Assembly (NCBI GenBank): GCA_016841045.1
Contig: JAENZX010000025.1
Coordinates: 1 to 49,576, forward strand
Length of the DNA: 49,576 nt
Direction: 5' to 3'
Origin: Thermincola carboxydiphila
GTDB taxonomy: Bacteria; Bacillota; Thermincolia; Thermincolales; UBA2595
Under the pieces are notes generated by a model. It worked only from the letters and a program-made list of their open reading frames with translations. It searched no databases and had not been told where the DNA came from. A program made the translations under genes and the position numbers. Below, in pieces: positions 3,167-44,109 of this stretch (its first letter is position 1; each line of letters opens with the position of its first letter).

Positions 3167-3400
3167 TTGAACTGCCTTAATGAAATGGATGAGGTCACTC
3201 GTAAGCGGTGTGGTGAATGTGACTATATGAATAATGATGTGGCTATAAACAAAAAGAGACCAAACTGCAAAGATTCTTATAAGCAGATAGAGTGTGAAGT
3301 TTATCTCCGGACACACAAGCTAGAAAATAGAGTTAAATACCTCAGAGGAGAAATTGGACCAATATTTTTTTGTGGTAAAGAGAGGACTGATGCCAATTGA
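3167..3400 (+). CDS. Cys-rich phage protein
   Basis: A 77-residue protein with six cysteines (CLNEM, CGEC, C in NCKD, IEC, FFCGK), likely metal-binding. TTG at 3167 is used behind gaggtgggcgag, the duplicated start cassette shared with the preceding gene. Its stop overlaps the TTG start of the next gene as TTGA. No family recognised. Confidence 0.6.
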   Translation: MNCLNEMDEVTRKRCGECDYMNNDVAINKKRPNCKDSYKQIECEVYLRTHKLENRVKYLRGEIGPIFFCGKERTDAN

Positions 3401-3867
3401 AGCAACCAAAATTAACAGTAGTGCCATGTACGATTGCTGAAGCCAATGAGTACATCAGAATATATCACAGACACCACAAACCGTTGAAGGTAGGGTACTA
3501 TTTTGCGGTTGCTGTAGCTGATGAAGCAGGAGAGATAAGAGGGGTTGCCATGGTTGGACGGCCGGTAGCTCGGGCCTTGGAAGATGGGTGGACAGTGGAG
3601 GTTAGGAGAGTGGCAACAGACGGGTGCCCGAATGCATGTTCAGCTTTATACGGAGCCTGCAGGCGCGCAGCATTCGCCATGGGATATCGAATGGTGATTA
3701 CTTATACCCTGAACACGGAGCCAGGAACGAGCCTGAGGGCGGCGGGTTGGAAATGTATTGGGGAGATACGAGGAAAAACATGGAATTGCCCAAGCAGACC
3801 CAGGGTGGACAAGCATCCGCTACAGACAAAATTACGATGGGAAGTAGATGCCAATGCAGGAGTATAA
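3397..3867 (+). CDS. XF1762-family GNAT-like protein
   Basis: A 156-residue protein of the phage 'XF1762' type, related to GCN5 N-acetyltransferases. Visible features are the N-terminal IYHRHHKP segment, the beta-strands FAVAVADEAGEIRGVAMVGRP, the VRRVATDGCPNACSALYGAC core where acetyl-CoA binding would be expected, and the AAGWKCIGE terminal strand. Such proteins recur in phage early regions next to resolvase and methylase genes; the substrate is unknown. The TTG start overlaps the upstream stop. It overlaps the RusA gene by 20 bp. Confidence 0.75.
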   Translation: MKQPKLTVVPCTIAEANEYIRIYHRHHKPLKVGYYFAVAVADEAGEIRGVAMVGRPVARALEDGWTVEVRRVATDGCPNACSALYGACRRAAFAMGYRMVITYTLNTEPGTSLRAAGWKCIGEIRGKTWNCPSRPRVDKHPLQTKLRWEVDANAGV

Positions 3868-5711: not shown

Positions 5712-5883
5712 GCAGATTCAAAAAGAGATGGGTAAGCCGGTTGCCCAGGAGGAAGTTGACCGGGTGACGCATGGAAAGATAATCTTCTATGTGCAGGACG
5801 GGAAGCTTTTGAGGGGCGAAGGCAGGAATAGTTGGCTGGTGGAAGATGAGAAAGAGGATCCGTCGATGAGGGGGTTCAGATGA
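5683..5883 (+). CDS. Small basic phage protein
   Basis: A 66-residue protein of unknown function (MPRVKPKLHEQIQKEMG..., then a beta-hairpin KIIFYVQDGKLLRGEG). ATG at 5683 follows cggaggga; an earlier in-frame start lacks a Shine-Dalgarno site. Its stop overlaps the Dam start (ATGA), so the two are likely translationally coupled. Confidence 0.6.
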   Translation: MPRVKPKLHEQIQKEMGKPVAQEEVDRVTHGKIIFYVQDGKLLRGEGRNSWLVEDEKEDPSMRGFR

Positions 5884-6707
5884 AGCCGGTCCTAAAATAC
5901 CAGGGAGCAAAATGGAACCTGGCCAAATGGATAATATCACACTTTCCCCCGCATAGGACGTACCTCGAACCGTTTTCCGGAAGCGCGGCCGTGCTGTTCA
6001 ATAAAAAACCAAGCGTTGTAGAGACAATAAACGATATTGATGGAAACGTGGTGAATTTTTTTAAAGTGCTTCGGGAAAGGCGAGACGAGTTAGCGGAGGT
6101 AATTGAGTTTACTCCTTATGCCAGGGAAGAATATGAGTCGATTCAAGCCAGTTGCGCGGATGAAACATATTTTTTTCGTACTGGCGATGAACTGGAAGAT
6201 GCCAGGAGGTTTTTAATCAGACCCTGGCAGAGCAGGGGAAGCAAAACGAGTGACCGGAACAGTTGGAGGCATGATATTCAGGGCAGGGGCGCGAGGTGTC
6301 CATCTGAATGGCTGAGATTGCCGAGCATTATTAGAGAAGCCGGGTTAAGGCTCAAACATGTGCAAATTGAAAACCAACCGGCCGTAAAATTAATTTCACG
6401 ATATGCGTTTCCGGAAGTCTTAATATATGCTGACCCTCCTTATGTGTTATCCACCAGAAACCAAAGAATCTATGCTCATGAAATGACCGACCAAGACCAC
6501 ATAGAATTGCTTAATGCTTTAGGCAGTCATCCTGGGCCCGTAATATTAAGTGGATACGCTTGTGGCCTATATGATAAGAGGCTAAAGCATTGGGAACGAG
6601 TTGCGACGAAGGCGCTAGCTGAAAAAGGGCAAACAAGAGAAGAAGTGTTATGGCTCAACCCAGTGTGTGCAGAAGCAAACAGAAATCTATTTACTACCGC
6701 CAAATAG
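5880..6707 (+). CDS. dam: DNA adenine methylase (Dam/D12 class)
   Basis: A 275-residue N6-adenine methyltransferase. KYQGAKWNL at the N-terminus binds AdoMet, motif I is YLEPFSGSAAV (28-38), ND in INDIDGNVV follows at about 51-55, and the catalytic motif IV DPPY is at 185-188. The length and order match the D12/Dam class. In a phage it probably methylates the phage genome to evade host restriction or to time replication and packaging. The recognition site is not known (GATC is typical of the class). It is the last gene before a rho-independent terminator, so it closes the early operon. Confidence 0.92.
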   Translation: MKPVLKYQGAKWNLAKWIISHFPPHRTYLEPFSGSAAVLFNKKPSVVETINDIDGNVVNFFKVLRERRDELAEVIEFTPYAREEYESIQASCADETYFFRTGDELEDARRFLIRPWQSRGSKTSDRNSWRHDIQGRGARCPSEWLRLPSIIREAGLRLKHVQIENQPAVKLISRYAFPEVLIYADPPYVLSTRNQRIYAHEMTDQDHIELLNALGSHPGPVILSGYACGLYDKRLKHWERVATKALAEKGQTREEVLWLNPVCAEANRNLFTTAK

Positions 6708-34436: not shown

Positions 34437-35885
34437 ATGAGTAAACCCGTGAAACTGTTTTATAAAGGTGAGCCAATACAGGTCCAGGGCGATAACGAGA
34501 GCGGTACCACAATGGTGCCGCTTCGTGCTTTTGCTGAGGCACTAGGGCATAAGGTGACCTGGCGACCCCCGGATGAGGTGTGGCTTGACGGTGATCCGCC
34601 AGTGAGACCAGTTCCGGAAGGACTGACTTTATCCGGTGAATTCTTTGTCATCGATGCCGGTCATGGTGGCGGTGACCCGGGAGCGGTGGACGGTATTAAT
34701 CCTGCAGAAGGAGATGCGATAAGCACCAAAGAAGCTGAACTCAATTTCCTGTATGCCGTCAAGTTGGCCTCCACACTGAAAGCCCTGGGTGCTGGTGTGG
34801 CCCTAACCCGGACGAAGCAGGAGGAATACCTGTCACCCCAGCAGCGAGCAGCCAGAGCAAATGACCGATACCCGCACGCGACAGCTTTTATTAGCTGGCA
34901 CAACAATTCGTTTAAAAACGCAAGCGCTTGCGGTTTTGAGGTCTTGCACTACTATACTACCGGGAACAGCTACCGTATGGCTAAATCTATAGTTGCACAG
35001 GCCAAAGCTGCAGGCATCCCACTGCACGGTGACGGCCTGGTTGATGGCCGGAAAATCGTTGTATTGAACTCAACAGATATGTCAGCCATACTCATCGAGG
35101 CCGGGTTTATATCTAATCCCCAGGAGGAGATAAACCTACATGATCAGGGCTACATGGAGCGGGTCATTATGGCTGTTGTCCGCGGCATTGTGGATGTTTA
35201 CGGGAAAAAACTGCAGCCGCAGATTGATTACCGCAAATTCCGCCATAAAGGCACCGACATACACCTGGCGGTTGTCCGAAATCCACAACTAAAAACAGCT
35301 GCCGCAGATCCCGGGAAGCGTCTCAATGTGGCAGCTGTGGCCAAACAGTACGGCGCAAAGCTGGCCATAACCGGAGGGTATTCTTGGCATCGCAAAGAGG
35401 ATGACACACACTGGCCGGTAACGCCGGTAATAGATAATCATGTGAGCGTAGGCAAGCCTGGGCCGCTGGAGGTACCCAGGGCGGCATTGTGCCAAGATGT
35501 CGACGGTTCCCTGCTTATTCGCAAGGCTCAGACTCCGGAAGAATTGTTGATATATAAAAACGCACTTGGCGCCGGGCCCATGCTTGCCGTAGACGGCAAG
35601 CGGCAGATTGGCCATGATGAGAAGTTTCTGGCCGACATCATGGAGGGGAAGAATCCCCGAGCAGCTGCCGGGCTAATTGATGAGCACACCCTTGTTTTGG
35701 TGGCTGTCGAGGGCCGTACATTAACTGATGCCGGGCTTACCCTGGAAGACCTGGCAGATTTTCTGGTCGCCTTTGGATGCAAGGTGGTAATGAACCTCGA
35801 TGGTGGGGGTTCCGTGAACCTGTGGATTGACGGTAAATGGATTGTCAAAGGTAGGGACATTGTTAATATCCTGATGGTGCTGTGA
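34437..35885 (+). CDS. Amidase-phosphodiester glycosidase fusion endolysin
   Basis: A 482-residue protein with three parts. Residues 1-52 resemble a copper-amine-oxidase-N stalk (TTMVPLRAFAEALGHKVTW). Residues about 67-262 are N-acetylmuramoyl-L-alanine amidase (Amidase_3) with zinc-binding DAGHGGGDPGA, SWHNNS and catalytic AILIEAGFISN. Residues 269-482 match the phosphodiester-glycosidase (NAGPA-like) fold: LAVVRNPQL, GAGPMLAVDGKRQI, VMNLDGGGSVNLWIDG. The amidase cuts the stem peptide from murein. The second domain could remove a phosphodiester-linked sugar, maybe on wall polymers. It lies in the lysis module between two membrane proteins. Confidence 0.85.
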   Translation: MSKPVKLFYKGEPIQVQGDNESGTTMVPLRAFAEALGHKVTWRPPDEVWLDGDPPVRPVPEGLTLSGEFFVIDAGHGGGDPGAVDGINPAEGDAISTKEAELNFLYAVKLASTLKALGAGVALTRTKQEEYLSPQQRAARANDRYPHATAFISWHNNSFKNASACGFEVLHYYTTGNSYRMAKSIVAQAKAAGIPLHGDGLVDGRKIVVLNSTDMSAILIEAGFISNPQEEINLHDQGYMERVIMAVVRGIVDVYGKKLQPQIDYRKFRHKGTDIHLAVVRNPQLKTAAADPGKRLNVAAVAKQYGAKLAITGGYSWHRKEDDTHWPVTPVIDNHVSVGKPGPLEVPRAALCQDVDGSLLIRKAQTPEELLIYKNALGAGPMLAVDGKRQIGHDEKFLADIMEGKNPRAAAGLIDEHTLVLVAVEGRTLTDAGLTLEDLADFLVAFGCKVVMNLDGGGSVNLWIDGKWIVKGRDIVNILMVL

Positions 35886-36459: not shown

Positions 36460-37092
36460 ATGGATGCCCAAGAAACTCTCAATACGTTTTTTTCTGATGA
36501 AGCTAAGAAGCAGCTGGTAGCTAGAATTCATGCAGCTTGCCGAATGGTTAGAGAGCAATGTTTGCCTGAATTCGCAGATACTCCAAACCGCGCCAAAGTA
36601 TATGGTAGAACTGCATTGCACTTTTTTGTGGACAGGTTGCTGGCAGAAGCAATCAACTTAGGGTTATTGCCGTTTAAAATTACAGAAAAAAAAGTAAAGG
36701 CAAATGGATATTGGTATATGGAGTATTCGTCGGATAAGGTTAAATGGCAGGTCAAGCGTGTAAAAAGAAGGGGCCAGTTACCAAAAGGTTCAAGCTTTCG
36801 CGTTTCAAACAGCGTCTACAACCAATTATTTTTTGATTTCGGACCAGAATTTCAGTTTAATTCTGAAGAAAATAGTTTGCCTTTTGCCATTGTAACATAT
36901 GGTCACAACAATTTCTATCCACAATTTGTTATGGTTGGTTTTCCTGAACCAAATTATCGTGAGTGGGCAGCGACATGTGATATTACCAACGTTTCTATAA
37001 TAGACTTAGAAGAAAGAATATATGAGGATAACGCTCCGAAACTTAAAAAAGAATTTCTTCAAAATAAAGTTCAAGAAACTCTCGAGGGTTGA
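36460..37092 (+). CDS. Hypothetical protein paired with XRE-M78 gene
   Basis: An unrecognised 210-residue protein, starting MDAQETLNTFFSDEAKKQLV. The first 70 residues are helical, a basic strand-rich middle follows (KWQVKRVKRRGQLP, RVSNSVYNQLFFDFG), and the end is acidic. It is the first gene of a two-gene operon and is directly followed by the XRE-metallopeptidase gene. Paired genes of this kind are predicted toxin-antitoxin modules, and it could be the toxin. ATG follows aagtggggtg. No catalytic motif stands out. Confidence 0.6.
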   Translation: MDAQETLNTFFSDEAKKQLVARIHAACRMVREQCLPEFADTPNRAKVYGRTALHFFVDRLLAEAINLGLLPFKITEKKVKANGYWYMEYSSDKVKWQVKRVKRRGQLPKGSSFRVSNSVYNQLFFDFGPEFQFNSEENSLPFAIVTYGHNNFYPQFVMVGFPEPNYREWAATCDITNVSIIDLEERIYEDNAPKLKKEFLQNKVQETLEG

Positions 37093-37097
37093 GATTT

Positions 37098-38240
37098 ATG
37101 TCAATTAAAAATAATAACATGAAAGCATATCCTTTGCCGGAGCGAATTAAGGAAGCTAGGTTAGCCCACGGATATACCCAAATTGAAATGGCAGAATTAC
37201 TAGGTGTGACCAGACAGGCTATATGTCAGTATGAAAGCGGAAGTAGCCATCCCAAACCTGAAGTTATTGGTTTACTTCAGGACTTAGGTTTTCCATTAGA
37301 TTATTTTTATAAAGATGTGGCATATCAAATCAATACACCTATTTTTTTCAGGAGCTTTAAAACAGCTGAAAAACGAGAACGAGAAATGTTACGAGTAAGA
37401 ATTAGATGGATGGTTGAAATTTATTTCTATCTAAAAAGCTTTTTTGATTTTGCGGAGTTAAAGCTTATTAGAAAAGAACAAGAATTTTATTCACAAGAGG
37501 AAATTGAAAAAATAGCTTTAGAACTTCGAAAACTTTGGGGTCTTGGTTTAGGTCCCATCAGTAATGTAAACTTGCTTTTGGAAAACAACGGTATTATATT
37601 GTCAAAAATTAGCTTGGGGAAGCGTAAAGTTGATGCTTGTTCTATCGTTAATACTTCCCAATATGAGTTTCGCCCGTTAATTTGCCTCACAGCAGATAAA
37701 TCATCGGCAGTCCGGTCCAGGTTTGATGCTGCTCACGAACTAGGCCATTTTGTTTTGCATTCTTGGGTAGACGAAGAGTACTTATCTGTAAAAGAAAATC
37801 AAGATCGCATTGAAAAAGAGGCACACTCTTTTGCTGGAGCGTTCCTTCTACCGTTAGAAACATTTTCTCATGAAGCTTATTCGCTAACATCGATTGATTC
37901 TTTTATTAACCTTAAACGTCGGTGGAAGGTATCTATTGCTGCAATGATCAGAAGATGTTACGATAATAATTTAATTAATAAAAGTCAATATGAATATTTG
38001 CAGCGGCAAATGAGTGTTAGACGATACAGAGCCACTGAGCCTTTAGATGATGTGTTACCAGACGAGCAACCACAGGTTTTAAGAAAAGCAATAGAAATGT
38101 TAATAGAACACGAAGTTCAGTCACCTGAAGAAATAAGAGAGAGTATTAAACTCCCAATAGAACAATTGGAGATGTTACTAGCAATTGATAAACAATTATT
38201 GAGGAAGAAACAGGAACCTCATTTAAAACTAGTAAAATGA
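37098..38240 (+). CDS. XRE HTH - ImmA/IrrE metallopeptidase fusion
   Basis: A 380-residue protein. Residues about 13-70 are an XRE helix-turn-helix (RIKEARLAHGYTQIEMAELL, GVTRQAICQYESGSS). After a helical linker, the M78 (ImmA/IrrE) zinc-peptidase domain has AAHELGHFVLH (HExxH) and KEAHSFAGAFLLP with the third ligand. In this family the HTH part binds the operon promoter and the peptidase cleaves a repressor or toxin. It is coupled to the upstream gene (stop and start 5 bp apart) and followed by a strong terminator, so the pair forms a closed unit. ATG at 37098 is preferred over the overlapping TTG at 37089. Confidence 0.85.
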   Translation: MSIKNNNMKAYPLPERIKEARLAHGYTQIEMAELLGVTRQAICQYESGSSHPKPEVIGLLQDLGFPLDYFYKDVAYQINTPIFFRSFKTAEKREREMLRVRIRWMVEIYFYLKSFFDFAELKLIRKEQEFYSQEEIEKIALELRKLWGLGLGPISNVNLLLENNGIILSKISLGKRKVDACSIVNTSQYEFRPLICLTADKSSAVRSRFDAAHELGHFVLHSWVDEEYLSVKENQDRIEKEAHSFAGAFLLPLETFSHEAYSLTSIDSFINLKRRWKVSIAAMIRRCYDNNLINKSQYEYLQRQMSVRRYRATEPLDDVLPDEQPQVLRKAIEMLIEHEVQSPEEIRESIKLPIEQLEMLLAIDKQLLRKKQEPHLKLVK

Positions 38241-40064: not shown

Positions 40065-40078
40065 CCTCCGGGCTTTTT
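40051..40078 (+). terminator. Terminator of the XRE gene
   Basis: gcctggagg-attaa-cctccgggc followed by tttttgc. The stem overlaps the stop codon of the XRE gene. Confidence 0.75.
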
Positions 40079-40103
40079 GCTTTCTATGATAGGTGTCATA
40101 TTT

Positions 40104-40412
40104 ATGTCAGTAGATAAATATAATTTAACTGTAATCCAAATGGATGACTTAAAAAAGGAGTTGGTGTCAATGGAATGTCTTGATAAGCTAATCCGGAAAT
40201 GCATTACTGTTTCCTTGGGGCAATTTCGTTACGGTGAAGCGAAAGGAGGGGGGAATTTCAGCCGGTATATACAGACCTTGATCACAAAAGAGCTTGCAAA
40301 AGATGAAATTGTTAATCCTGATTTTGTCCGTCAGGCATTAAGAGAAGGTGCTGGGCTAAATGCACGACAAAAAAAGCCAGCGAATACGCTGACCTGGACT
40401 TTCCCAAAATAA
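40104..40412 (+). CDS. Hypothetical small protein, start uncertain
   Basis: An unrecognised protein of 102 residues from ATG 40104, or 80 from ATG 40170, which follows aaaaaaggag and is the better-supported start. It contains KCITVSLGQFRYGEAKGGG and NFSRYIQTLITKEL, loosely like a helix-turn-helix or RHH-type DNA-binding protein. Two hairpins (gcccc/ggggc near 40417 and atgctc/gagcat near 40454) follow before the membrane-gene operon; the rest of 40413-40539 shows nothing else. Confidence 0.5.
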   Translation: MSVDKYNLTVIQMDDLKKELVSMECLDKLIRKCITVSLGQFRYGEAKGGGNFSRYIQTLITKELAKDEIVNPDFVRQALREGAGLNARQKKPANTLTWTFPK

Positions 40413-40605
40413 AATAGCCCCATGGATTTAACCAGGGGCATACCTTCCCTCAATGCTCATAAAGAGCATATGCGTGAACTGTTAAAATAATACCTGTCTT
40501 ATCTGATTTTAGCCTAAAGCAAATTTTGCCAACTGCATCATGGTTATTCCTATAATCCAAAGCGGCATATCTGACTCACCTCTTATTCTAGTCTGGCCAT
40601 TGGAG

Positions 40606-40722
40606 GTGTTATTTATTAAAAAACTTCTGTGGGATATTTTCTGGATACTGGTTTGGTGTACCGGGTTCTCACTGGTTATTTACGATCTGTTTTTAAAAAG
40701 GAGGAATCGGCATGGCCGTTGA
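40606..40722 (+). CDS. Small membrane protein of the ATPase island
   Basis: A protein of 36-39 residues with one span (WDIFWILVWCTGFSLVIYDL) and a basic tail (LKRRNRHGR). GTG 40606 is in the Shine-Dalgarno site itself (ggaggtg), so ATT at 40615, 9 bp after ggaggt, is a real alternative start. A longer in-frame ATG at 40540 has no Shine-Dalgarno site. Its stop overlaps the next gene. It opens the compact operon that ends with the large ATPase. Confidence 0.5.
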   Translation: MLFIKKLLWDIFWILVWCTGFSLVIYDLFLKRRNRHGR

Positions 40723-40852
40723 GGTCCTGAATTGGGTTTTCTCTCAACACTGGTGGCTGTGGTTTAAGACAATATCGTCAATCGGTGCTCCCATCGTTTG
40801 CGTGGTAGGAATTGTGTGGTTCGTTTATGACCGATATACAGGAGGGATATAA
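40712..40852 (+). CDS. Small membrane protein of the ATPase island
   Basis: A 46-residue protein (starts MAVEVLNWVF) with one span (IGAPIVCVVGIVWFVYD). ATG at 40712 follows aaaaaggagg. Its TAA touches the next ATG. Together with its neighbours it looks like a set of membrane or pilus-type small subunits; the exact role is unknown. Confidence 0.6.
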   Translation: MAVEVLNWVFSQHWWLWFKTISSIGAPIVCVVGIVWFVYDRYTGGI

Positions 40853-41167
40853 ATGAAGACGGTTGCCTTAGAATGGACACCATTTTTTGAGGGCTCCATC
40901 GTACCAAAACAGGAGCAATCAAATATTAACTTCCTGGCTGCAGGTGCCGGCCTGGGCATAGCAGAGGCGCTTCATCCCTTTAAGCTTATTATCGCAGAAT
41001 GTTCTGACCCAGTTTGTTTTGTTGGCGGGGCCATCGGGCTCTACAGGGTGGCCACAGGTGACCGGGAAGGTGGTTTTAAGCAGGTGCTAAATGCAGCGAT
41101 TGCCCAGATAGGATTCTTTGTATGGCCGAAGATACAGCTGGCAATAAGAATGAACCTGGGAGTGTGA
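40853..41167 (+). CDS. Hypothetical membrane-associated protein
   Basis: A 104-residue protein with hydrophobic stretches (NFLAAGAGLGIAEALHPFKL, IGFFVWPKIQLAIRMNLGV) and a central loop. ATG 40853 follows ggaggg and immediately abuts the upstream stop. Looks like a small conjugation-type membrane protein (VirB2/VirB3-like in size), an inference. Confidence 0.55.
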   Translation: MKTVALEWTPFFEGSIVPKQEQSNINFLAAGAGLGIAEALHPFKLIIAECSDPVCFVGGAIGLYRVATGDREGGFKQVLNAAIAQIGFFVWPKIQLAIRMNLGV

Positions 41168-41170
41168 GAT

Positions 41171-41422
41171 ATGGCTGCGTGGGTTTTAAAACTTCTGGCA
41201 GCTGGCGGCCTTGGAGTAGGTTTAGCCAAAGCCAGCGGCCCGGTGCTTATCAAACTGTTAGCCGGTACCTTTGAAGTAACTGCCGGTGTGCTGGATGTAT
41301 TAGGTTACATCATGTTTATAGCATTTATTCTTGGGTCTAAGAAGGGGGGAGAAAAAGTTGGTGTTATCTGGCCGCTTTCCATCATCCTTGAAGCCGTGGC
41401 GGTTAGTCTCTGGAAGAGTTGA
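41171..41422 (+). CDS. Hypothetical membrane protein
   Basis: An 83-residue, largely hydrophobic protein with two spans (AGGLGVGLAKASGPVLIKLL; GVLDVLGYIMFIAFILG). The 3' end overlaps the ATPase gene, whose likely start lies within it. Probably a partner of the ATPase in the membrane. Confidence 0.6.
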   Translation: MAAWVLKLLAAGGLGVGLAKASGPVLIKLLAGTFEVTAGVLDVLGYIMFIAFILGSKKGGEKVGVIWPLSIILEAVAVSLWKS

Positions 41423-43874
41423 GCGGCGGCAGCTGACTACGTTCCGGCTGGTACCGGGAAGAAATACAAGTAATAAAGGTAGTTACCGGGTGTTGCATGC
41501 AATTCATGACTTAGGTGATCTAAAACAATCCCTCTGGGCTAGGATATCATTTCGCCCCTTCCGGATACTGGAGAGAGAACATATATGGTGGGACATGATT
41601 ATTACCCCTGACCATGCCAGGTTTTACATTACTCTACCTGCAGGTGAATGGTCTGAATGGGCCAAGGCAAAAATTGAACGAAGATGGGACGGTATAGTTA
41701 TATCGGAAGCTACTGACGAAGATATGGAATTACTGCATATCTCAGAAAATGCTGAGGTATGTAGACTCAATCTAAAACGCCACAACATGTTTTCCCTGGC
41801 TGTTGACCGCCGTGAAGAGACTCACCCTATAGGAGACCTGTTGGGAATTATTGATGATTTGAAGGAAAATGAAAAGGTAAGGTTGGCAGTTAAAATGGAT
41901 CCGGTTGACCGGTTGCGTTGGCAGAAGGCGGCAGAATCAGCGCATAAAAGATTCCGGGATGGTAAGATGCCTAAACGCGGAGGGTCCAAACTGGGGGATA
42001 TAATTAAGGATGCACTCCATTTAATTATGTGGTTTATATCTGAATTGTTTTTTACATTGCCTCGGCTTTTTCCGGGAGGAAGCAACACTGAAAATGTTAT
42101 TAACTTTAACCGTGATGACAGGCAAAGAACTGAGGTTTTGGTTAATGGCCGCTTATCCAGGTCCACATTTGAAAAGGCCAATCTACCGGTATTCAGTTGT
42201 GAATGCTATCTAATGGCCCATGCGAACAATGACGTAAGGGCGGAAGCTCTGGTAGCTTCTGCGACCGGCGCCTTAGCTTCGGAGATGGATGAAAATAATG
42301 AGTGGGTAAAGATTCATTATCGCTCTTCTGAAAAGAAAAAAATTATTAAACGAGTTAATGAACGGCGGTTTCGGTTTATGCGAATTGATAAGACAGTGCT
42401 AAGTACCAAAGAACTGGGTAAGGTTGCCCAGTTACCTAGTGCAGGAGTGCAGGATCAGTACCGAAAACAGGTAATGGCTTCTGAAAAACTGTCCATTGAT
42501 TTACCGGCGGCAATAACCGGTGAAGGTATACCTTACGGTGTATCCGAGAGCAGAGGCAAAAAGGTAGCCGTGAACTTCCCGGTGAAAGTCCCGGATGAAA
42601 CTGTCAAGGTATCCGTATTCATCGGTGAGAGCGGCAGCGGTAAAAGTACAGCTGTCATTAACCGGGCCCTGGGGGCATTGGAAAAAGGGAAAAGTGTTTT
42701 TATGTACGATTTCACTAACCGGCGGCCCCTGGATCAGTTACTTAATGCAGTGCCGGCAGATTTCCCGGAAGATCATATAGTCTGCCTTAACTATGGTAAC
42801 CGTGCTTGGCCGATAGGAACGGCATGGAATGAAGTGGCCTATGGGATAAAAGGAGGTTGGGAAGACGTTCTGGCCAGTGAATTCTGGGTATTCTTCAGCA
42901 GATATGCAGATGATGGCGTTGCCAGGACCAGACGATGGATGAAGAAGGCTGCTCTTGCTTGTGCTGAGGCCCAATGCCTGAACCCGTTAAATGTCACCCT
43001 GATGCTATTGTCAAAGAAATTCCGGGCAAAGGTGTTACAAAAGGTTGAGGACCCTATTCTTAAGGCAACCTGGGCACAGTGGGAAAAGGCAAGTGAAGCC
43101 AATCAAATAACCATGGCAGAACCGATATTGTCACGGATAGATTACTTATTAGACAACAGGGCCCTGAAACATTCTATTTGCCAGCAGCCTAAACTGGGGG
43201 CCGACGGTAAACCTCTTCTCGATTTCAGGAAGTGGGCTGACGGTGATGAGCGCGGACCGTACCTGGTACTTATTCATGTCCCTAAGACTGTTTTCAGCGC
43301 TTCCGGTCTTGATGCTATGATGGCCTGGCTGAATGCCAAAGAGTGGCTGATGACCTTGACCAGGGATGATAAGTACCCGGAGTGCCTGATAATAAAAGAT
43401 GAGGTTCATCAGATACCGTCCCTTGCAGCCAAAGCAGAAGAGCAAATAGTAGAAAGCAGAAAATACCGGGTGGGTCCGGTGTGGGTGTTTCACTCACTGG
43501 CCCAGGTGGAGAAAATCAGCCCCAGCATGATTAAGATACTGAAGGCAAATAATCCCCATATCCATCTGCTTAAGAGCGATGAGGATACATATAAGCTTTT
43601 ACGGACACAGTTGCTGCCATTTACCGTTGAAGATGATCTGCTACCAATGGAGCGGCACTGGGCAGTGAATCGGTGGCATGTTGACGGGAAACCGCAGGTG
43701 TTTATGTGTAAACTGAATAGGCCTCCTAAGAAGGTGAAAGATCGGTCATACCTATGGGAATTACACTCAAGAGTCTATGGTAGGCCGTTAGAAGAAGTGG
43801 TTAAGGAGATATCCGAAAATGAAATGGCCCTATTTGAGGTCGAGGAGAAGAAGGGGCAAAAGAAAAAGGCATGA
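41358..43874 (+). CDS. Large FtsK/VirD4/HerA-like ATPase
   Basis: About 838 residues. An N-terminal domain (LVPGRNTSNKGSYRVLHAIH, then HIWWDMIITPDHARFYI) is followed by a hydrophobic stretch (LHLIMWFISELFFTLPRLF, near 42020-42070), the Walker A GESGSGKST (near 42625) and a Walker B CLIIKDEVHQIP (near 43385). A sensor-like segment PVWVFHSLAQVEKISPSM follows. This is the FtsK/HerA/VirD4 DNA-pumping fold, probably membrane-bound. No relaxase is present nearby. Start: TTG 41358 or GTG 41361 follows gggggag; ATG 41331 lies inside the upstream gene. Confidence 0.7.
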   Translation: MVLSGRFPSSLKPWRLVSGRVERRQLTTFRLVPGRNTSNKGSYRVLHAIHDLGDLKQSLWARISFRPFRILEREHIWWDMIITPDHARFYITLPAGEWSEWAKAKIERRWDGIVISEATDEDMELLHISENAEVCRLNLKRHNMFSLAVDRREETHPIGDLLGIIDDLKENEKVRLAVKMDPVDRLRWQKAAESAHKRFRDGKMPKRGGSKLGDIIKDALHLIMWFISELFFTLPRLFPGGSNTENVINFNRDDRQRTEVLVNGRLSRSTFEKANLPVFSCECYLMAHANNDVRAEALVASATGALASEMDENNEWVKIHYRSSEKKKIIKRVNERRFRFMRIDKTVLSTKELGKVAQLPSAGVQDQYRKQVMASEKLSIDLPAAITGEGIPYGVSESRGKKVAVNFPVKVPDETVKVSVFIGESGSGKSTAVINRALGALEKGKSVFMYDFTNRRPLDQLLNAVPADFPEDHIVCLNYGNRAWPIGTAWNEVAYGIKGGWEDVLASEFWVFFSRYADDGVARTRRWMKKAALACAEAQCLNPLNVTLMLLSKKFRAKVLQKVEDPILKATWAQWEKASEANQITMAEPILSRIDYLLDNRALKHSICQQPKLGADGKPLLDFRKWADGDERGPYLVLIHVPKTVFSASGLDAMMAWLNAKEWLMTLTRDDKYPECLIIKDEVHQIPSLAAKAEEQIVESRKYRVGPVWVFHSLAQVEKISPSMIKILKANNPHIHLLKSDEDTYKLLRTQLLPFTVEDDLLPMERHWAVNRWHVDGKPQVFMCKLNRPPKKVKDRSYLWELHSRVYGRPLEEVVKEISENEMALFEVEEKKGQKKKA

Positions 43875-43903
43875 CATATTAATAGGAAGTATGTAATTAT
43901 TAT

Positions 43904-43984
43904 GGGCTAATTCAGCCCAATACTTTTTAGCCTAAAATTAGCCCATTTTTGCACACTTATTATTTATTTAGCCCATTTTTGGGC
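43904..43984. repeat. Repeat and hairpin cluster between the ATPase and tRNA-Leu
   Basis: gggct-aattc-agccc (43904-43918) and gccca-tttt-tgggc (43971-43984) are palindromes, and the 14-mer ttagcccatttttg is repeated at 43938-43951 and 43968-43981. These repeated gccca/tgggc cores may be recombinase-binding or terminator elements at the element's end. Confidence 0.5.
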
Positions 43985-44009: not shown

Positions 44010-44021
44010 GATATCATTCAT

Positions 44022-44109
44022 TGGTGCGGTCGAGAGGACTTGAACCTCCACACCCCAATGGGCACTAGAACCTGAATCTAGCGCGTCTGCCAATTCCGCC
44101 ACGACCGCA
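44022..44109 (-). tRNA. tRNA-Leu (CAG)
   Basis: 88 nt including the CCA. The acceptor stem TGCGGTC pairs with GACCGCA. The anticodon stem CTAGA/TCTAG holds the loop TTCAGGT, anticodon CAG. A long variable arm is present, as in leucine tRNAs. The 3' end faces the mobile element to the left, so this gene is the likely integration target. Confidence 0.95.

Follow-up and report, generated by a model that had tools for sequence, protein, structure and literature searches.

The window analyzed here, meaning the whole 49,576-nt stretch of Thermincola carboxydiphila DNA (assembly GCA_016841045.1), is a complete contig, JAENZX010000025.1. Toward its right-hand end four short plus-strand open reading frames (ORFs) of 60, 46, 104 and 83 aa are followed by one long ORF (40540-43874). 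Most of the 49.6-kb contig is occupied by a tailed prophage, of which this operon is the final unit. The operon pairs a VirB4-like ATPase with a small protein resembling the VirB2-type pilins of type IV secretion systems (T4SSs). The features of the region are as follows.

6-43874, plus strand: tailed prophage, left side cut by the contig end (PHROG matches)
40077-40412, plus strand: possible ribbon-helix-helix (RHH) regulator, 111 aa; counterpart of SPP1 gp31 by position
40540-40722, plus strand: short one-helix membrane protein, 60 aa (one hydrophobic segment; start uncertain)
40712-40852, plus strand: short one-helix membrane protein, 46 aa (hydropathy; strong Shine-Dalgarno sequence AAAGGAGG)
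40853-41167, plus strand: VirB2/T4SS-pilin-like protein, 104 aa (profile, shuffle control, phrog_5422 at E = 0.0014, AlphaFold2 two-helix hairpin)
41171-41422, plus strand: hydrophobic protein, 83 aa, two to three helices (hydropathy); occupies the position of SPP1 gp31.2
41358-43874, plus strand: VirB4-like ATPase, 838 aa; counterpart of SPP1 gp32 and SPO1 gp27.4 (phrog_5156, AlphaFold2, Foldseek)
43903-43919, plus strand: candidate operon terminator (consensus scan only)
44022-44108, minus strand: tRNA-Leu(CAG) (ARAGORN); the prophage probably ends on the right at the tRNA 3' end

The ATPase ORF opens at 41331 (41331-43874), and the best-supported start is the TTG at 41358, behind AAGGGGGGAG. 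The ORF is not a chance one, because it is a full-length match to phrog_5156 (E = 1.3e-163) and has matches in 69 phage records, 59 of them at a coverage of at least 80%, with about 20-27% identity. Relatives include SPO1 gp27.4 (26% identity), TP-84 gp48, GBK2 gp32 and proteins of 000TH010, Ray17, D6E, MMB025, LysYB1, BboS-125, FADO and phage G. SPP1 gp32 aligned over 838 columns with 24% identity (E = 8e-57), and the closest relative (28%) is encoded on a plasmid of Alicyclobacillus dauci. In the window protein the Walker A motif reads GESGSGKS; a Walker B-like IIKDE and an ESRKYRVG segment are also present. Searches of Pfam, NCBIfam and PDB sequences returned nothing above the cutoff, and scans of genomes and viral contigs with a single protein (the window or the A. 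dauci ATPase) found no relatives. Matches to epidermal growth factor receptor entries, and the MsbA label on the D6E homologue, were set aside as spurious.

A preliminary description had called this protein an 840-residue FtsK/VirD4/HerA-like ATPase. The ORF is intact, and its predicted fold lies closest to VirB4. The whole-length AlphaFold2 model (pLDDT 78) gave VirB4/TrwK of R388 as its best Foldseek match (E = 1.3e-15) with a high root-mean-square deviation, so that the VirB4 reading of the N-terminal half draws on fold topology only. For the motor domain, VirB4 of Thermoanaerobacter (T. pseudethanolicus) ranked first (VIA, Z 25.8), and a DndH domain, TrwB and HerA followed within about 2 Z units. 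The VirB4-type ATPase expected of a conjugative T4SS or an integrative and conjugative element is therefore present by predicted fold, not by sequence profile. None of the operon proteins matched the Zot family in Pfam or PHROG searches. Two further loci bear on the family. A fragment in a genome of another family (L002, G046:C13) aligns with residues 759-820 of the window ATPase ORF at 62-68% identity and contains a stop codon; it is a decayed close relative. Bacillus phage G (L080, 2198-6340) encodes two adjacent conjugation-type ATPases, gp155, which matches the TraG P-loop domain, and gp156, which belongs to the family of the window protein.

The second conserved component is the 104-aa ORF. 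A profile built on 18 relatives from phages and plasmids, with the window excluded, was run against all 668 window ORFs; the 104-aa ORF scored E = 1.1e-5 and the runner-up 0.22. It reached 20.8 bits, whereas none of 2000 shuffles exceeded 9.1 and the reversed sequence scored 0.4. Some relatives in the pilin family exceed the Pfam T4SS_pilin cutoff, and a match to TrbC/VirB2 falls below its cutoff. The AlphaFold2 model is a two-helix hairpin, the expected shape for VirB2-like pilins, although such a hairpin is no proof by itself. Counterparts are SPP1 gp31.1, TP-84 gp47 and SPO1 gp29.1. In a survey of the ATPase neighborhood at 31 other loci, 26 had a same-strand pilin-family gene 0.3-2.6 kb upstream of the ATPase gene, and this order recurred in at least nine distinct phage groups. 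The profile was iterated on those 31 loci, which makes the per-locus E-values optimistic; reversed-sequence controls gave no match below E 0.09.

The small genes had been described as four and mostly of membrane type. All four ORFs exist, while a clear hydrophobic segment (Kyte-Doolittle) was seen in three only, the 104-aa ORF being weaker and hairpin-like. The GTG at 40606 earlier taken as a start shares the frame of the 60-aa ORF, for which Pfam gave no match and PHROG only a weak one (phrog_8477, E = 0.016). The 83-aa ORF is placed like SPP1 gp31.2 yet was not matched by a gp31.2-type profile, and in the TP-84/D6E group no gp31.2-type gene was seen between pilin and ATPase. Upstream, the 111-aa ORF ranked first of the 668 window ORFs for a phage RHH profile at a value short of significance (E = 0.054), and its motif GNFSRYIQTLITKEL is akin to NFSGYVKKLIxxDM of phage RHH proteins.

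What surrounds the pilin and ATPase genes varies among the relatives. A Replic_Relax gene (PF13814), a family recognized as the MobC relaxase (PMC5357655), follows the ATPase gene in SPO1, FADO and a Laceyella plasmid and, by profile, in BcoS-136 and the locus L063. A relaxase-type gene adjoins 5 of the 31 loci. Six loci (A. dauci, MMB025, BboS-125, BcoS-136, L052 and L053) have an M23 peptidase gene no more than 1 kb upstream, and ParM-like actin genes are found near the ATPase in 13. Homologues are thus far from being confined to conjugative elements with relaxases, the finding that would have marked the window copy as a truncated remnant; most are in tailed phages. Neither a MOBC-type relaxase nor a ParM-like gene was found in the window, although either could be encoded in the part of the prophage that is missing on the left.

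To the left of the operon, PHROG matches identified both terminase subunits (TerS and TerL), portal, head protease, major head protein, tape measure, tail and endolysin genes. The endolysin lies at 34437-35885 with the structural genes further left, and the operon is therefore beyond the lysis genes, a part of the prophage itself and not a separate island in the neighborhood of the tRNA gene. The tRNA-Leu reported next to it was recovered. DNA homology to two related genomes (G007 and G001) begins at the tRNA 3' end (window position 44021) and continues on the host side only, and homology to a third (G004) begins at about 44005, some 16 bases further out. This break would be consistent with a prophage that ends at the tRNA-Leu gene, as support and not as proof, and the left flanks of the related genomes, which are not all alike, limit the inference. 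In an Anoxybacillus prophage from a metagenome-assembled genome (L061), the ATPase gene likewise stops just before a 5'-truncated kamA (lysine 2,3-aminomutase), the host gene that the prophage interrupts. In D6E and MMB025 an integrase gene closely follows the ATPase gene, so that integration would place the two at opposite ends of the prophage, and the same arrangement is expected for the window prophage. Of the earlier statement that no relaxase or integrase is present, the first part holds for MOBC-type relaxases in the window. The absence of an integrase is uninformative because the contig ends inside the prophage.

Candidates for the missing left end were rejected. A gene that adjoins tRNA-Leu in G004 led merely to a 44% paralogue inside another contig, and an integrase at the start of contig C8 had no phage context. 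The 26-bp match to the tRNA end on contig C36 probably represents an att site used by another element, beside a different tRNA-Leu gene: an integrase there (G000:C36:8584-24502) adjoins another tRNA-Leu, and the 26-bp copy of the tRNA end lies about 16 kb away, which probably marks a second element. Elsewhere in the genome (G000:C61:13986-16418), a tandem array of three same-strand tyrosine recombinase genes resembles known three-recombinase mobile elements. Within the prophage, genes for a PAPS-reductase-like protein, a Mom-like DNA modification protein and a DNA methyltransferase (791-2077, 3397-3867 and 5880-6707) indicate that the phage probably modifies its own DNA. Between the endolysin gene and the operon, in the accessory region of the prophage, PADLOC found an RmrT (E = 3e-17) and RmrA (E = 2e-123, helix-turn-helix plus ImmA-type peptidase) pair at 36460-38240; these are candidate defense or regulatory genes.

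The module is nearly restricted to phages of spore-formers. Among herellevirus-type records, no homologue was found in about 500 from non-sporulating hosts (Staphylococcus, Enterococcus, Listeria, Lactobacillus, Brochothrix and Mammaliicoccus) compared with about 20 of 97 from Bacillus and Lysinibacillus. Because these records are not independent of one another, a test value describes the pattern only. Outside the Bacillota an exception is the Microcystis phage MaeS (L079, 3197-6187), a cyanophage with a pilin-like gene and the ATPase. The window host has Spo0A, and a role of the module in sporulating cells is possible.

The VirB4-type fold of the ATPase and its pilin-like partner bear out the initial view that the gene order resembles a small machine for DNA or protein transport. 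Building on directly established gene content, prophage context, homology, predicted folds and conserved gene order, we consider it probable that the operon represents, in a prophage, an accessory module widespread among tailed phages of Bacillota, one that specifies a minimal T4SS-like, DNA-moving channel. The VirB2-like protein, with one or more of the tiny membrane proteins, would form a membrane channel or short pilus base, and the VirB4-like ATPase, by analogy a hexamer, would dock on it. By analogy with VirB4 systems and the crenarchaeal Ced/Ted systems (PMC9905601), the ATPase would handle pilins and/or drive assembly, macromolecule translocation or both. We infer that the proteins form one complex whose cargo is DNA. 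This would most likely be the phage genome, on its way from one cell to another or through the envelope; DNA is favored because of the relaxase-type neighbors in relatives and the DNA-motor fold. If the module behaves as in SPP1, it would be expressed early.

Several points weigh on the other side. The main weakness is the missing VirB6-like pore: neither a multi-helix protein of that kind nor VirD4 is among the operon ORFs, the left part of the prophage being off the contig. PF13814 had no match in the whole genome, but it matched no control genome either, and other relaxase families were not searched genome-wide. No relatives could be detected for the proteins of 83, 60 and 46 aa, and the putative RHH link of the 111-aa ORF is not significant. 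The pilin model had no significant PDB match, Foldseek returning only meaningless two-helix matches. A copy of the tRNA-Leu end to serve as attL was not found when up to one mismatch was allowed. Finally, the literature searched contained no report of measured transport for any member of the module.

A bolder version of the transport reading is that tailed phages of spore-forming Bacillota need no virion to deliver their own genome directly to another cell or to the forespore, using a self-contained minimal conjugation machine made of a VirB2 pilin, a VirB4 motor and sometimes a peptidase, relaxase and ParM. We put this forward tentatively and regard it as doubtful.

The best surviving alternative, although an unlikely one, is a superinfection exclusion or anti-phage device in which membrane proteins and a HerA/FtsK-type motor block or expel competing phage DNA. 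The SPP1 genes are non-essential and early, the operon adjoins the RmrT/RmrA-type pair, and the motor fold is also like that of HerA antiphage ATPases. The PADLOC match, however, was weak and partial (mad8, E = 6e-4, in the P-loop region), the same scan of the operon showed no nuclease, SIR2 or DUF4297 partner beside the ATPase, and the pilin, relaxase and peptidase partners in relatives suggest transport.

Rather improbable is a device for genome positioning or spore capture, in which the motor, with the ParM-like actin and RHH proteins that many relatives encode beside it, would move phage DNA across a septum, for example into the forespore. The 13 loci with ParM-like genes, the predominance of spore-forming hosts, the contrast among herellevirus hosts and the Spo0A of the window host would all suit such a device, but simple lineage inheritance may explain the host restriction. 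The window showed no ParM-like gene, phage MaeS has pilin plus ATPase, and a pilin-like protein would be unnecessary for the task. Export of phage effector proteins to the envelope or to neighboring cells is very unlikely: VirB4-type systems also move proteins and most members lack any relaxase-like gene, yet no conserved candidate cargo adjoins the operon and several lineages have a relaxase-type gene after the ATPase. Least credible, and strongly disfavored, is the degraded conjugative element or satellite inserted beside the prophage suggested by the tRNA-Leu neighbor, the T4SS-type ATPase and the lack of an integrase in the contig, because all operon genes are open, the operon is the end of the prophage itself, the contig stops before the left part of the prophage, the same module occurs in intact temperate phages and in the lytic phages SPP1, SPO1 and TP-84, and the L061 prophage shows the same terminal position.

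If the minimal T4SS-like channel is real, it would give phages a route for the movement of DNA or protein without a virion. Its genes have long been in the databases and the model phages SPP1 and SPO1 carry them; the VirB2/VirB4-type identity, across the phage groups surveyed, turns a vague annotation into a testable question, namely whether tailed phages make a conjugation-like channel. The window adds a prophage copy in a host lineage outside the Bacillales phages, where the module mostly occurs.

Comparison with known systems agrees with the initial view that the operon can be classed neither with ordinary conjugative elements nor with inoviruses. It differs from inoviruses in having no match to a Zot/pI ATPase and in being surrounded by tailed-phage genes, and from HerA-type antiphage systems in the partners missing from the PADLOC scan. 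With Gram-positive conjugative T4SSs it shares the VirB4 fold, the pilin-like protein and, in some relatives, a peptidase and relaxase; in contrast to them, it is borne by a tailed phage, and no VirB6, VirD4, peptidase or MOBC relaxase was found in the window. The Ced/Ted DNA import systems similarly combine a VirB2-like pilin with a VirB4/HerA-like ATPase in few genes and with no known relaxase (PMC9905601), but they are cellular and have a VirB6-like pore (CedA/TedA), whereas the window operon is viral and encodes no multi-helix protein. SPO1 resembles the window in its pilin-like gp29.1, three tiny membrane proteins and ATPase gp27.4, and adds the ParM-like gp27.9 and the Replic_Relax (MOBC-type) gp27.3, neither of which was seen in the window.

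The SPP1 set is another close counterpart. SPP1, like GBK2, 000TH010 and Ray17, resembles the window in gene order: an RHH-like gene (only a possible one in the window), a VirB2-like protein (about 120 aa in the SPP1 type), a second small membrane protein and an ATPase (about 840 aa), all past the lysis genes of a tailed phage. The window differs in that its 83-aa protein is unlike gp31.2 in sequence, two extra one-helix ORFs precede the pilin gene, and the copy is in a prophage whereas SPP1 is strictly lytic. In the 2018 re-annotation of SPP1, gp32 was found to resemble TrwB, VirB4 and FtsK, gp31.2 and gp32 were non-essential, gp31.1 was given without an assigned function, and gp32, together with gp31.1, gp31.2 or both, was proposed to make up a transmembrane translocon (PMC6316719); literature searches beyond that paper found nothing further on the module. 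Because this set was already noted in 2018, the window operon is a further member of it, not the wholly new secretion-like system that had been considered. What is new is the VirB2 plus VirB4 identity, the relaxase, peptidase and actin variants, and the near-restriction to phages of spore-formers.

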